A stretch of 64,000 nucleotides of DNA. Origin: Henckelia pumila (taxonomy: Eukaryota; Streptophyta; Magnoliopsida; Lamiales; Gesneriaceae). Within the stretch, counting starts at the first letter, position 1, and the number at the start of each line of letters is the position of its first letter. The position numbers and the translations under genes were made by a program. The notes beneath the pieces were generated by a model. It had not been told where the DNA came from. It made no database searches and saw nothing but the letters and a program-made list of their open reading frames with translations. Shown here one piece after another: positions 55,002 to 62,359 of this stretch. The stretch is from positions 87,996,151 through 88,060,150 of the forward strand of contig NC_133120.1 in assembly GCF_033568475.1 (NCBI RefSeq). The letters run 5' to 3'.

Positions 55002-58000
55002 ATGTCCTACAACTCCGATGCCGCCTCGCCGTCGACGCCCGGCGGCGCGAGAGACTGGATTTTTCCTTCTTACTCCTTCGTTCAATCCACCCATTCTCAC
55101 CACCAACGAACCTCCCGAAGAAGAAGATTCTCAACTTACCCCACGCAATTCAACTCGGCCGCAGCTTCGTTTCCGTCTCGACCAGCTCCCGATGACTCCA
55201 CTCCAGTTCTAAGTAGCTATCCTTCCAAGTTTTCAGGGTTCAGACGTCGACGTTTCGAGTTCGGGAGGAACCACGAGAAGTCAACGGTGGTCGTTGATGA
55301 TAGTGGTGGAGTCGCGGAGGCTAATCCAAAAAATGAAGTTTCACGGGAGAAGAATTTTTCCGGTTCTCTGAGAGGAAGGTTGAGAGTTCGTTGGCAGTTA
55401 GCTTTTACCGCGGTGGTGAGCAAATTTTTCTTCTCTCTCTTCTGTTTGTGTGACATTAGCGTACCACTCTGTAAGCACAATGTACGACTTCGGTGATACA
55501 TCTCTTCATGATGAATATGGAGAGATTACCTTGTTTCACTGCATAGCTGTAAAGCGTAATTGTTACCTTACCCACACTCCTCTAAGTATATATGAACTAT
55601 GAGCGTTTGCCTGAGAACTTTGTATGACTCGAGCTCCACAAAGTAGAAGTTGATATTTTACATTTTGGTTGGGTGCAGATTCTTTTAATGGTGCTATCTT
55701 CGTTGGTACAGAAGAATTTTTCATTACACGATGAGATTACTCATTTGCAGGTAACTCCGCTAAATGTGCACCACACACACAAATTTTAACCATAGAAGTG
55801 TTTTTATTCTCAATATTAGAAAGGAGATGAGCAGCTAATATGGTCTACATTAGTTAATTTCTGGTGGTGTGGTACTGTAATTGAATTTTAGAGGTGCATG
55901 AAAGATGTATAAATGATGGAGTATCTTGAAATGTATGTTTTATTTGTCAACATCTGAAATAATCCAGCCTGGTTGTAGTTTTAAAAGGTATTGAAATGGT
56001 TCTATAAAGACATGATGGAATCGCGTTTAAGATGGTTTGCAACTACAATTATTGGAGCTTAGATTTCACGGAATCGATTATTGGTCAGGATGCTGATAAT
56101 CATGCTTGCTAATAAGGGTAATTCCACTATTTTGCAGGATCAAATATCCAAGCTCAACGTGAGGTTAAAGCTTTGCAACCATTTGGACCCTGTAGATATT
56201 AATATCATGTCAAAGCAGAATTTCTCTGTTGATAGTCTTCCTAGCAAAAGCATTAAAGTTGTAGCATTAGCTTTTTCAATCATACTGTTGTCTTTCCCTT
56301 TATTATTCTTCAAGTGTGTTGACTATGTCTCAAATTCAAGAAAGTCGCTGGACAATAACACAGAGGAAGTCTCCTTGAACAAGAAGCTTGCATATAGGGT
56401 GGATGCCTTTTTATCTGCAACCCCGTATGCTAAGCCTCTGGCTTTGTTGGTCGCTACTTTATTGTTGATATGTCTTGGAGGATTGGCGCTTTTTGGAGTG
56501 ACAGATGACTATTTAGCGGATTCCCTCTGGCTTTCTTGGACTTATGTGGCTGACTCAGGGAATCACGCAAATTCCGAGGGCATTGGTCCCCGTCTTGTTT
56601 CTGTTTCGATTAGTTTTGGTGGGATGCTTATATTCGCAATGATGCTTGGCCTTGTTTCTGATGCTATTTCTGAGAAGTTTGACTCACTCAGGAAGGGAAA
56701 AAGTGAAGTGGTGGAGCAAAACCACACTCTAATCCTTGGTTGGAGTGACAAGTTGGTATACCCTTATTTTGATGGCCTTATATCTGTGCAAGAAATGTTC
56801 CATTTTCCAATCTCTGAAATGTTGTACAGCGAAGATTTTTTTTTTATTTTTACAGGCATCCTGTTCAATTTTTGTTATGTCTTGTTACTAGAGTGTGATG
56901 TTGAGTGGCAGTTATATCATTGTGACAGGGATCATTGTTAAATCAACTTGCCATAGCCAATGAGAGTTTGGGTGGAGGGATAGTGGTTGTCATGGCAGAA
57001 CGGGACAAAGAAGAGATGGAGCTTGACATTGCTAAGATGGAATTCGACTTTAGAGGAACAGCAGTTATATGCAGAAGTGGAAGTCCTCTTATATTAGCTG
57101 ACTTAAAAAAAGTATGTTATTTCTTGTTTTTCTTCCTTGCTTCCTCATATTTCACATGTTTTTTTTACTCACGCATAATTTGAGATCCAAGAATTTGTCT
57201 TCACTAAGATGAGAAAGGCTATTTGTAATCTATGGTTGTTTTAATGGTTCGCCGGTACGGTCGAGAGCCCGTGGCGGAGGCTGCCGTTCTAGTTCCAATA
57301 TCATTTCGCCGAGCGGAATTTTTAAAAAAATATAAAAGTATAGATATTAGTAAATTTTTTGAAAAAAATATATACAAATTAGTCCCAATATCAGCTCCAA
57401 ATCTGTCCGATTGTAAAATCCAGCTTTCAAAAGTCAACTCTTAACTTTACAATTGAGTGATTGACATTTCAAAATCCGACCGCGATGCGGCCATTCCTAT
57501 TATGTTCCCCTGTAAATCGCCATTAAAACATCAAAGAATGGCATTCCAGTACCACCAACATTTTTTCCCAGAACTTTGGAACAGGAGTGGCCATTTCCGT
57601 TCCGTAATGTCCGCTCCAGCCGCGATGCGGCCGTTCTAGCGAACCATGGGTATGTACATGTGTGTGTGTTTTGGCATTTAACCATATAATGGTGGATTTT
57701 TTTTTATCAAGCTAACTGTCTAGAGATTTCCTAGGTATCTGTTTCTAAAGCCCGTGCTATAATTGTCCTCGCCGAAGATGGAAATGCTGACCAGGTTAGC
57801 CCAATGGAGGATTGAACATTTCTCAATACTGCTTGTTTAACATATGATACCTATTTGAAGTTTCTTTCTTTTGGATGCAGAGTGATGCTCGTGCACTAAG
57901 GACAGTTTTAAGCCTAACAGGTGTAAAAGAAGGACTGAGGGGACACATCGTAGTAGAACTTAGTGATCTTGATAACGAGGTCTTAGTTAAACTCGTTGGT

Positions 58001-61000
58001 GGAGATCTTGTTCAAACAGTTGTGGCACATGATGTAATTGGTAGGCTGATGATTCAATGCGCTCGACAGCCTGGGCTTGCACAGGTCGGCTCATAGTTGT
58101 TGTTTTACTAAGTTTTGTGTATGGTCCATTGAAAATGGTAACCTTTATCATCCTCTTACTATTTGTGTGACACTGATTACTGTTTTTTAGATTGACTTTT
58201 GTATTTGATTGAAACTTGGCTTCCCTTTCTCAACTTTTCTCAGTCTATTTCGTGGATTTGCCAGTGCAGATATGGGAGGATATTCTTGGGTTTGAAAATT
58301 GCGAGTTCTATATCAAAAGGTGGCCACAGTTGGATGGGATGCAGTTTGAGGATGTTTTGATCAGCTTCCCAGAAGCTATTCCTTGCGGGGTGAAGGTAGC
58401 ATCAAATGGTGGAAAAATTATTCTAAACCCAGATGACTCTTATGTCCTACAAGAAGGGGATGAGATTCTTGTTATTGCCGAGGATGATGATAGTTATGCT
58501 CCGTCAACTCTACCAATGGTGCTTCCCTTTCCTTTTTACAACGTGTCAATAGTTATTATTTCTGCGTCTGTGCCTATTAGCTTCAAAGACTGACCGATGA
58601 TCATCCTATCCTACATGAGATTCAAGGATAGGAAGATTTAGTTTTCTAGGCTCGGTCAATTTTTTTTTGCAAATTACCATGGGATAGGTCAAATTGCGAA
58701 AATAAAAAAATTGACCGAGCCCATTTAACAAAAACTCGTCGAAAATTTTTATTTTTTTGTAATTTTTTAAAAAATTAATTAGTTAATAACCATAAAACAA
58801 CAATAAAGAGGAATTCAAAATATTTTATAATCATCATCTTCTAACATTATCCATCATCACATGTTACCCTCCGCACTCTTTCTTGCAAGTTTGACTGTAC
58901 ATTCAAACTCGTATTTTGCGAAACAAGTTTTTTTTTATGCCACGTGGCTGAATTCGAATGGTTGATAATTTATGTTGTCAATATTATTCGTAGTTAACCT
59001 TGTTCACTTCCAAGAGTTCTACTTGATTGGAATGTCATGGTACGATGTGGAAAAGGTAGTTCCCTTTTTTTTAACTTAATTTTTAAAAAAATTATAAAAT
59101 GAACTTAATGGGGGGGAAACAAATATCACAAGTCAGATGGTGAGCTTGCCACTCATGAAAGAAATGGTGTTGGGTTGGTTCCTGCCATGGAATTCAAGTG
59201 AGTGGGGCATACCATGAACAAAACTTACTCCACAAAATTAATTTCATTATTCAGGTCACCGATGCAACATTCATACATATTGCCAGACCAACAAGAAAGC
59301 CACAGAAGATTCTACTTTGTGGATGGAGGCGAGACATTGATGATATGATTGTGGTAAGCCAGCTAATTGAAGCCCCTAATTCTTTCTCTTCTTCAACTGA
59401 ATGCGCAGGTCTGGAGAGGAAATCTACCCCTGGATGAGATTGATCACAAATCTTTCGAGCGGATACTTCTATGCGGTTGGCGGAGAGACATGGAAGATAT
59501 GATAACGGTAATTCAAAATACACGAGTACAGGTGGCTAGTGGTATTTTGTCAGTGGAGCTTAAATTTCTTGGTGATGCACCTGGCCAAGAGATGATCTCA
59601 TCACCTTATTCAATCAACATAATGTGCCTGCAGATTTTCAAATTTGAATATTCGTTTTATTTCTTCAAGGCTGTTTCCTATTCCTTCCAAATTTTGCTGT
59701 ACTATAAGTTATTGTGTTCAAAATAAACTTTGTTGTTCGGATTGTTAGGTATTGGATGCTATTCTAGCACATGGATCAGAGTTGTGGATGTTCAATGATG
59801 TTCCAGAGAAGGAAAGAGAAAGAAAGCTAACCGATGGTGGCCTTGACACCAGCCGACTGGTGAACATAACACTTGTCCATCGCGAAGGAAATGCGGTCAT
59901 GCGTCGTAACCTTGAAAGCCTGCCTTTGGAATCTTTTGATTCGGTAAGCTACATTAATTATTTGCTTGAAATCCTTTTTAAATAATTATATTGTTGATCA
60001 TTCTAAAACCTGATATATGTGACGACTCTCTCCATAAAGAGATGAGGCTGTTTTATTGTGATTAAATCATTTTAACCAACCCAAAAGAATTTTATTTCCT
60101 TCCAAATAATATTCTCGGTTATGCAGATACTAATTTTGGCTGATGAGTCTGTAGAAGATGCGGCAATTAAAGCTGATTCTAGATCTCTTGCTACATTATT
60201 GCTGATTCGTGACATACAGGTACATTAATCGGATGATGATTTTCAATTTGTTAGTGACATAAATTCATTAATTGTATTCAGCTCTTTATGAATTTTACTC
60301 AAAAGTGATTATAATTTGGCCTTAATATTTTTTGCCCCAAAAACATTTTTGACAGCACAGGTCTCCTACTCGTCTATAAATAAAGTGGCATTAGAGAGTG
60401 GGTATGCCCTCACTGAGACCAAAAAGCTGCTAGAATGTACTAGCTAGAATCTGTGGACAGAGATATTTTTCTTTTCTAACAACTCATCGAGTCTAGATTT
60501 ATTACTCAGTTATATATTCATTAATTTTGCAGTCTGGCCAGCTAAGAAGTTTGATGGAGTTAATTTACTACAAAATAGTTATCTCTGCTATGACATCAAA
60601 TTACAACCATAATCGCTAAAAATAAATATATATTTCCAATCCCTCCAGCAGTTGAGAATTTCTTATTGGTTCTTTATCTCAAATATAACTAATAGATGGT
60701 ACTTTATCTCGAAAAATGTTAAAAGTTGAAAAGGAGCAAAATTGACAACTTAACCAGACATGCATGATTTGCCACTTTTTTCCAATTGTTGGTTTTGTGA
60801 TTTTGGATATTTGATCGTCAAGAAAAGATTTCTCTTTGGTTTTCAGGCAAAGCGCCTTCCAATCAGAGAAGCCATGCTTCCCCAAGCTTACAGAAGTAGC
60901 TTCTCGCAAGGCTCATGGATTGGGGAAATGCAACAAGCTTCAGATAAATCAGTTATTATCAGTGAAATTCTTGATCCAAGGACAAAAAATCTATTGTCAA

Positions 61001-62359
61001 TGTCGAAAATCAGTGATTATGTTCTGTCAAATGAGCTAGTTAGCATGGCTCTGGCCATGGTTGCGGAGGATCGCCAAATTAATGATGTACTGGAAGAACT
61101 TTTTGCTGAAGAGGTACGTTTCTATATAAAAATTTCATACCATCCAATTACATCATTTCCTTGCTAAACAAAGCTATTCATTTCCATTCTATAATTAATT
61201 TTTTGAATGGCTGATGATAGCTGACTTCTGACGTTTGTTCTATGATATTTCTCATATTTTGAAATTTCTGGCAAGAATACCGTGGAATCTCATTTCATAG
61301 CTAGAAAAAAATTTTGGTCCGAAATGTTATTGTTATGCTTAATTCCAATTGAAAGAAACTAGCCCTTGTACCAACTTCTCAAGTATCCTGTATCCCCATG
61401 TTTTCTAGGGTATATGTTTGGATCAAGGTATTTGATTTATTTTAATTGTAAAAGTACATTTTAAATTTACCATTAATCAACTATTCTCTTCCATCGGCAG
61501 TTGTTTGAAATCATATCTGCAAATCAAATCACCTTGTCCAAACACACACCTAGAGGTTTTTTCTTCTCCCAAGCACACTTCAGTTTCTTTTACCATATTT
61601 CGTTTGGACATTTACTTGTAAAATATTTTTATGAAAGTGTTTTTTAAAACTTTTTATAAAATATTTTAAAAGTTGTTTTAAAAATAAATATTTCTATAAA
61701 AACATTTTAACTTGAAATAATGTTATTCATCTTTGTCTTCCATAGTTCAATTCTAAAAACATATAAAAACATTTTGCAACTATTCTTAAAAAAGTCTACT
61801 TTGAGAACACGTTTCAAAAAATATTTTTCAAAAACATTTTACAAAATTTTATCCAAACACATGCTTTAAGTTTTTTTTTTTCACTTATAAAAACTGAAAA
61901 CATTTTTAAAGTACATGTGCTATCCGAACCTTATTTCTTTTAGAATTCTTTAATTTAGTTACAATATATGCCTATTCTACTCTTCTACGGAAACTTGACA
62001 TCTGTGTTGGATACGTACTGACCCATATCTGAGCTGTGTGCGTGATTCTGCATGGGAGTCTTTTTACAAATAAGGCGCTTCATAGCTCATTGATTATGCA
62101 TGTTCCCTCGTAATCTTTTAGAAGTTTCCACATTTTACAGGGCAACGAGTTACACATAAGAGGAGCAGATCTTTACCTGTATGAAGGTGAAGATTTGAGC
62201 TTCTATGAAATAATCTTACGTGCACGTCAAAGGAGAGAGATTGTAATCGGATATCGTCCATTCAATGCAGAAAAAGCAGTGATCAACCCTTCGGCCAAAA
62301 ATGAGAAAAGAAAGTGGTCCCTAAAGGATGTCTTTGTTGTTATTGCTGAGAAGGAATAA
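55002..62359 (+). CDS. CASTOR: CASTOR-type nuclear-envelope cation channel
   Basis: Exons: 55002-55415, 55679-55750, 56138-56755, 56929-57111, 57735-57794, 57881-58084, 58270-58518, then 59409-59507 (or the alternative 59255-59353), 59749-59943, 60127-60219, 60847-61113 and 62141-62359; 2,673 nt, 890 aa with either form. A Ser/Arg-rich N-terminus is followed by membrane helices near residues 131-148, 202-220, 263-283 and 314-335. The pore filter ADSGN is at 300-304. Two RCK gating domains follow, with NHTLILGWSDKLGSLLNQLA, ERDKEEMELDIAKMEFDF, SGSPLILADLKKVSVSKARA, CGWRRDMEDMI and the end KWSLKDVFVVIAEKE. Sequence and tail match CASTOR more closely than POLLUX/DMI1. In legumes and rice CASTOR is needed for nuclear calcium spiking in root symbiosis. 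At 890 aa it is somewhat longer than Lotus CASTOR (853), mainly at the N-terminus. Intron 4 carries a transposon and intron 7 a hairpin. Confidence 0.95.
57244..57647. mobile_element. non-autonomous DNA transposon in CASTOR intron 4
   Basis: A GC-rich island inside an AT-rich intron, bounded by ATGGTTCGC at the left and its exact reverse complement GCGAACCAT at the right, 404 bp in total. Subterminal GCGATGCGGCC blocks occur twice near the right end (57482 and 57621) and a related block near the left. No clear target duplication was found, so the superfamily is not assigned. Confidence 0.55.
58649..58722. repeat. hairpin (inverted repeat) in CASTOR intron 7
   Basis: GGCTCGGTCAATTTTTTT at the left pairs with AAAAAAATTGACCGAGCC at the right, and pairing continues imperfectly inward (GCAAATTACC with GGTCAAATTGC). 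It would make a strong RNA stem between exon 7 and the duplicated exons. It may be a tiny MITE. Confidence 0.75.
59255..59353 (+). other. CASTOR alternative exon 8a
   Basis: A 99-nt phase-0 exon with acceptor TTATTCAG and donor GTGGTAAGC. It encodes VTDATFIHIARPTRKPQ followed by KILLCGWRRDIDDMIV. It is a tandem duplicate of the next exon: the last 16 residues align at 11 identical positions, yet nearly every shared codon that can differ synonymously does. Its IDDMI form resembles POLLUX/DMI1. It joins in frame to exon 7 and to exon 9. Confidence 0.8.
59409..59507 (+). other. CASTOR alternative exon 8b (CASTOR-like form)
   Basis: A 99-nt phase-0 exon with acceptor AATGCGCAG and donor ACGGTAATT. 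It encodes VWRGNLPLDEIDHKSFE followed by RILLCGWRRDMEDMIT. This is the form closest to known CASTOR proteins (a short variable linker, then ERILFCGWRRDMEDMI). The intron separating it from exon 8a is only 55 nt. Confidence 0.9.

Follow-up and report, generated by a model that had tools for sequence, protein, structure and literature searches.

During root symbiosis, nuclear Ca2+ spiking depends on CASTOR. In Henckelia pumila, a CASTOR gene contains two similar exons side by side at the junction of the RCK1 and RCK2 domains, and this raises the question of whether one gene can provide two forms of the gating ring of the channel. The original prediction for this locus had proposed a splice switch between the two exons, named 8a and 8b here. 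We investigated this issue in a window of 64,000 nt of contig NC_133120.1 (the whole stretch of DNA that was analysed), in the rest of the assembly and in the proteins of other plants.

Our spliced reconstruction showed that the window contains a complete and intact CASTOR gene on the forward strand (55002-62359; Table 1). With either 8a or 8b, the spliced product has 890 amino acids and no internal stop, and the pore filter YVADSGNHANSEG is present in it, which we take to be the 'ADSGNH-type' filter of the CASTOR branch. Across both RCK domains the protein reached 1021 bits with Lotus CASTOR (PDB 6o6j) versus 877 bits with Medicago DMI1, and it clustered with angiosperm CASTOR in the tree (support 100/99). 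These results agree with the channel identity given in the original prediction, and by its sequence the gene is assigned to the CASTOR branch of the CASTOR/POLLUX channels. In the 884.7-Mb assembly, a DNA search that scored the best candidates alone found the CASTOR segment once. Exon 7 ends within the RCK1-RCK2 linker. The inverted repeat in intron 7 has 33-nt arms that are 82% complementary, with 37 nt between them, and is possibly the remnant of a small mobile element.

Table 1. Features of the CASTOR gene in the window and the corresponding exon of POLLUX in Henckelia pumila.
Feature	Position	Strand	Description	Basis
CASTOR exons 1-7	55002-55415, 55679-55750, 56138-56755, 56929-57111, 57735-57794, 57881-58084, 58270-58518	+		spliced open frame; Lotus CASTOR match
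Intron 7	58519-59254	+	736 nt, donor GTGCTT	contains inverted repeat 58634-58736
Exon 8a	59255-59353	+	33 codons, VTDATFIHIARPTRKPQKILLCGWRRDIDDMIV	conserved in relatives
Spacer intron	59354-59408	+	55 nt	short spacer elsewhere; conserved block
Putative branch site of the spacer	59376-59380	+	CTAAT	motif match, in block resembling the spacers of other species
Exon 8b	59409-59507	+	33 codons, VWRGNLPLDEIDHKSFERILLCGWRRDMEDMIT	form aligning with crystallised Lotus CASTOR
CASTOR exons 9-12	59749-59943, 60127-60219, 60847-61113, 62141-62359	+	RCK2; includes stop	spliced open frame; Lotus CASTOR match
POLLUX exon 8	42090650-42090763, in L010 (G000:C3:42085500-42095400)	-	single, LRKGLSPRITDPPKFPEKILFCGWRRDIDDMIM	same 33-codon frame as 8a and 8b

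Exons 8a and 8b are 99 nt each, both in phase 0 and with GT-AG borders; the acceptors end in CAG, and the donors are GTAAGC for 8a and GTAATT for 8b. As had been predicted, each of them can join exon 7 to exon 9. The product would have 923 amino acids with both exons and 857 with neither, and joint inclusion preserves the frame. The pair has the anatomy of mutually exclusive exons, being tandem, homologous and equal in phase, with each exon completing the frame. The sequence ILLCGWRRD-x-x-DMI is common to both, and the abundance of silent changes claimed for this core was confirmed: of the 11 common residues that have more than one possible codon, 8 use a different codon in 8a and 8b. The dS between the two exons (NG86) was 2.3 over 33 codons; for codons 18-33, dS was saturated and dN was 0.16. 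When the whole window was scanned in six frames with 8b as the query, 8a was the sole other segment with a score above 20 (58, versus 185 for 8b itself), so the likeness is not due to chance.

Kim et al. (2019, PMC6697748) have described the gating ring of Lotus CASTOR, placing RCK1 at residues 320-552, the linker at 553-580 and RCK2 at 581-853. The linker wraps round the C-terminal subdomains 'like a rope', and the Ca2+ ligands include E552, D553 and D554. At an inter-lobe Ca2+ site, H463 is contacted by both R589 and R590, and D442 also by R590. The mutation D442A abolished nodulation, which indicates that the R590-D442 contact matters. Counted along the sequence from the residues given in that paper, exon 8 corresponds to Lotus CASTOR 565-597. 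Replacing 8b with 8a exchanges most of the linker and turns ME into ID in the next helix, and CGWRRD with both arginines is retained. Because exon 8 starts just past the Ca2+ ligands that close RCK1 and extends to the contacts made by R589 and R590, the swap may retune Ca2+ gating. The AlphaFold models of a grape 8a isoform were too poor for the linker, with a mean pLDDT of 42.7 (40 rows) and 56.4 (75 rows).

We consider it likely that 8a and 8b are ancient tandem-duplicated alternative exons that are normally used one at a time, are kept apart by steric exclusion and swap a segment of the gating ring. Exon 7 would be joined to 8a or 8b, in a presumably regulated choice, and then to exon 9. 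The resulting channel would contain either of two versions of a segment that comprises the RCK1-RCK2 linker, the first RCK2 strand and the beginning of the helix after it. Such a swap may retune both the Ca2+ activation and the Ca2+ inhibition of this nuclear Ca2+ channel, and 8a would provide the more POLLUX-like form.

A 42-residue query with 8a matched 264 proteins, and the top 120 were listed. Among these matches, 8a was found in rice, orchids, avocado, poppies, grape, cucurbits, cacao, poplar, apple, Solanaceae, Asteraceae, Lamiales and the conifer Cryptomeria. The original prediction implied that close relatives carry 8a, and Primulina and Dorcoceras do so at the protein level. A second query with the Cryptomeria segment gave 190 proteins (120 listed), and among the matches listed Gb_17779, which is probably Ginkgo to judge by the style of its name, carries both exons.

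From 67 pattern matches, merging of identical rows left 59 distinct proteins with both exons, gymnosperms included. Their mean pairwise identity was 0.788 in 8a and 0.780 in 8b. For the last 15 residues it was 0.959 in 8a versus 0.911 in 8b. Inside one protein, the identity between 8a and 8b was 0.405, and only 0.114 in the first 18 residues. The high identity across proteins, together with the divergence between 8a and 8b, indicates that two distinct linkers have long been kept around a near-fixed core. Judged by these identities, 8a is conserved as strongly as 8b and is not a dead local duplicate. The earlier view that both copies are old and constrained at the protein level is in accord with them and with the dS between the exons.

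The near-fixed GWRRD of 8a is altered in some lineages. It reads GMRRD in Triticum and Aegilops (P0114, P0116-P0118), GRRRD in Morella (P0069) and GWGRD in Nicotiana sylvestris (P0067). These changes perhaps reflect a local loss of 8a function.

To explore which products are annotated, we selected from the 218 fetched proteins the 56 with 'isoform' in their printed name, the names being truncated in print. By script, 40 of the 56 run from 8a straight to exon 9, five have both exons exactly joined, four have both with an odd junction (the spacer being read through in three), one has 8a and then other sequence, and six have 8b only, namely five legumes and P0067. The last is really a variant 8a joined to 8b, a pattern miss that was corrected by eye. 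Thus, the 51 non-legume proteins comprise 40 with 8a alone, six with both joined, three with spacer read-through and two odd cases. Because the queries carried 8a, the set is biased to 8a and 8b-only non-legumes lie outside it, so 40 of 51 means that 8a-only products are annotated and does not give their share. Predicted isoforms with 8a are thus already present in the databases. On short contigs, there were also open frames in which 8a occurs without 8b: P0203 (723 amino acids, contig of at most 2,667 bases) shows full-length identity to lettuce isoform X2, and P0140 has 805 amino acids on a contig of at most 2,939 bases. As the locus spans 7.4 kb, these contigs do not represent it in genomic form. 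Single-exon products are annotated in other species for both exons, 8a alone in the 40 isoform-named proteins and, from different species, 8b alone in all 28 listed legume representatives (see below), so each single-exon form exists.

However, both exons are exactly joined in 80 of the 218 fetched models by the script; five of these are isoform-named, and P0067 is a sixth isoform-named case. We suspect that many of the 80 other than the isoform-named ones are gene-finder output. The joined models would fit a rival explanation, that of a common cassette exon: 8b would be constant, and 8a would sometimes be added upstream, giving 33 more residues and repeating the linker and the first RCK2 strand. 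The frame is indeed kept in such a product. This explanation is unlikely in our opinion, because 8a occurs without 8b in 40 of the 51 isoform-named non-legumes and in the open frames on short contigs, the spacer is very short, and the product would have CGWRRD, with which the strand and helix of RCK2 start, twice. A switch between two variants, as originally proposed, gains support from the age and constraint of the pair, the annotated 8a-only products and the short spacers of other species, but in view of the 80 joined models its exclusivity may not be strict. The six isoform-named proteins with both exons and the three read-throughs could reflect occasional splicing of the spacer or leaky exclusion.

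In three models, P0016 (Persea), P0088 (Urochloa) and P0072 (Papaver), 8a is joined inside 8b, before ERILFCGW or EKILFCGW, and about 14 residues are omitted. They look as if an inner 8b acceptor could be usable after 8a.

Alternative use of 8a and 8b by steric exclusion would depend on the spacer. The 55-nt length claimed for it was confirmed, versus 86-1027 nt for the remaining CASTOR introns of the window, and so was the frame shift on retention, which leads to a TGA at 59435-59437 in Henckelia pumila. In seven read-through models from other species, the spacer ranges from 52 to 66 nt, in a sample that is selected in that in-frame spacers are the easiest to spot. It is 54 nt in Cucurbita, Populus, Phragmites and Eragrostis, where it is in frame and without a stop, and 66 nt in Papaver. 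Frame-shifted read-throughs gave 52 nt in the sorghum-like P0195 and 58 nt in Erythranthe, assuming that, as in the window, the GCA codon is followed by one last intron base. We found no figure in the open-access literature for the minimum length of plant introns, so no such minimum is relied on.

We compared the spacer of the window with those of eight species, and found 4-6 matching codons of at most 12 compared, the donor being excluded. Read in frame, the window spacer contains EAPNSF at the same place as the Eragrostis read-through. When the window spacer was shuffled 20,000 times, the same match was reached by 8 shuffles for Eragrostis, 13 for Phragmites, 18 for P0195, 92 for Papaver, 107 for Cucurbita, 167 for Populus and 331 for Stephania. 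The likeness was therefore below 0.02 by shuffling in seven of the eight species; for Erythranthe it was within chance (1507 of 20,000). The block that resembles the other species contains CCTAAT, a plausible branch site. Its putative branch adenine (59379) is nucleotide 26 of the 55, which puts it about 25 nt away from the donor of 8a and 29 nt before the intron end. The spacer has another CTAAT, with the adenine at nucleotide 13.

A comparable arrangement is reported for exons 4a and 4b of vertebrate OGDH (PMC7969005), where the branch adenines lie 25-41 nt from the upstream donor, below a proposed threshold of about 50 nt, and so make the two exons exclusive. The OGDH exons are likewise an old tandem pair, and they alter the response to Ca2+, an effect that may be expected in CASTOR. 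However, OGDH is an animal enzyme whose intervening intron measures 118-131 nt in birds and mammals, its branch points being far from the acceptor, whereas the CASTOR spacer has 55 nt and its putative branch site lies 29 nt before the intron end. By analogy, we infer that exclusion in CASTOR depends on donor-branch proximity: the putative branch adenine used for 8b would be too close to the 8a donor for the splicing factors to pair across the spacer. Retention of the spacer instead would lead to the stop in Henckelia pumila.

Two other mechanisms of exclusion were considered and rejected. U12-type incompatibility does not fit, as the junctions are GT-AG and no donor starts with the U12 donor motif. 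Competing RNA structures do not fit either, since none of the seven inverted repeats in 58519-59748 links the region of 8a, spacer and 8b to a place elsewhere, and a search of Rfam gave no match at the gathering threshold.

The stop on retention also suggests a different role, in which 8a would mainly be a brake on expression: use of 8a would lead to spacer retention, a premature stop and mRNA decay, and the 8a protein would be incidental. Some models do read through the spacer, and P0195 stops just after entering it beyond 8a. However, the 8a protein is conserved like that of 8b, its core even more so, and the four 54-nt spacers lack a stop, so we regard this role as very improbable. Least credible of all is that 8a is a decaying, functionless duplicate, because, despite the altered cores in wheat and Aegilops, Morella and Nicotiana sylvestris, it has an open frame and a mean identity of 0.788 over the 59 proteins, and is present from Cryptomeria to Lamiales; a dead or recent duplicate is contradicted as a general account by this conservation and by the divergence of 8a from 8b.

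Alternative use of 8a and 8b, our preferred explanation, belongs to a known kind of splicing arrangement. What distinguishes the CASTOR pair is that it is old, conserved and probably mutually exclusive, and that 8a is unseen among the listed legumes. We found no description of the pair in the open-access literature, by titles and abstract starts, which agrees with the original prediction; in passages of papers that contain both CASTOR and 'splice variant', the latter term refers to other genes.

The structure and physiology of CASTOR, as considered here, come from Lotus, a legume. Exon 8b aligns residue by residue with the exon-8 segment of Lotus japonicus CASTOR (PDB 6o6j, 6o7a, 6o7c; PMC6697748), which is the same channel but has the 8b form only. 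We explored the legumes with a chimeric query made of the Lotus soluble domain and a rosid-like 8a exon, so designed that a legume protein with 8a should rank above legume proteins without it. The search gave 1,926 proteins from 7,992 scored candidates, and the best 120 were listed. Among these, none of the 28 legume representatives carries 8a and all have 8b only, including Lotus, Glycine, Vigna, Cajanus, Abrus, Arachis, Lupinus, Pisum, Vicia, Acacia, Prosopis and Bauhinia; these rows are representatives of protein clusters at 90% identity, in which minor isoforms can be hidden, and are not genomic DNA. All 90 source-named non-legumes among the best 120 carry 8a, but 8b-only non-legumes rank lower in this search, so the contrast is one-sided. 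The remaining two rows are P0140, with 8a, and P0181, with 8b only, whose nearest rows are legumes. The actinorhizal Alnus retains 8a, and Morella has it with the altered motif.

If other seed plants do have a second, equally conserved form of the gating ring, studies of the Ca2+ tuning of CASTOR have covered only one form out of two. It could be tested whether one gene gives two types of Ca2+ response, and whether the loss of 8a accompanied legume symbiosis. The pair would further offer an example, conserved over deep time in plants, of exons made exclusive through spacer length.

Finally, we explored the origin of the pair through POLLUX. Searching the assembly with Medicago DMI1 gave 16 matches at two loci, the CASTOR gene of the window and a POLLUX locus on contig C3. 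POLLUX/DMI1 (PDB 7vm8) shares with CASTOR the 33-codon exon frame and has IDDMI as in 8a. However, POLLUX of Henckelia pumila differs from CASTOR in having one exon 8; no second copy was found in the 985 nt before and the 1,463 nt after it. The IDDMI noticed in one copy is indeed POLLUX-like, and exon 8 of Medicago POLLUX had a BLOSUM62 score of 100 with 8a versus 76 with 8b of Henckelia pumila. The consensus sequences of 8a and 8b, in contrast, do not differ in their closeness to this Medicago exon, each matching it in 19 of 33 residues. In a tree built without exon 8 and with one POLLUX sequence, two gymnosperm genes clustered weakly with Medicago DMI1 (92/86), but their placement with CASTOR (p-AU 0.10) or outside both (p-AU 0.22) was not rejected. 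Unless the pair arose twice, it would date from before gymnosperms and angiosperms split, and perhaps even from before CASTOR and POLLUX did.

A wider history can be proposed more tentatively; it could well be right, although we lean slightly against it as a whole. The splice switch would predate the seed-plant radiation, possibly even the CASTOR/POLLUX split, would since have been held by the conserved spacer and branch site, and would have been lost in legumes, so that legume CASTOR work covers one of two ancestral forms.

The query with the Cryptomeria segment also gave sequences of Closterium algae (P0192, P0194, P0196, P0202, P0210, P0213-P0215 and P0217), which have a single POLLUX-like exon-8 segment, PPKLPEKILFCGWRRDIDDMI. 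This suggests that IDDMI may be ancestral and the MEDMI of 8b derived.
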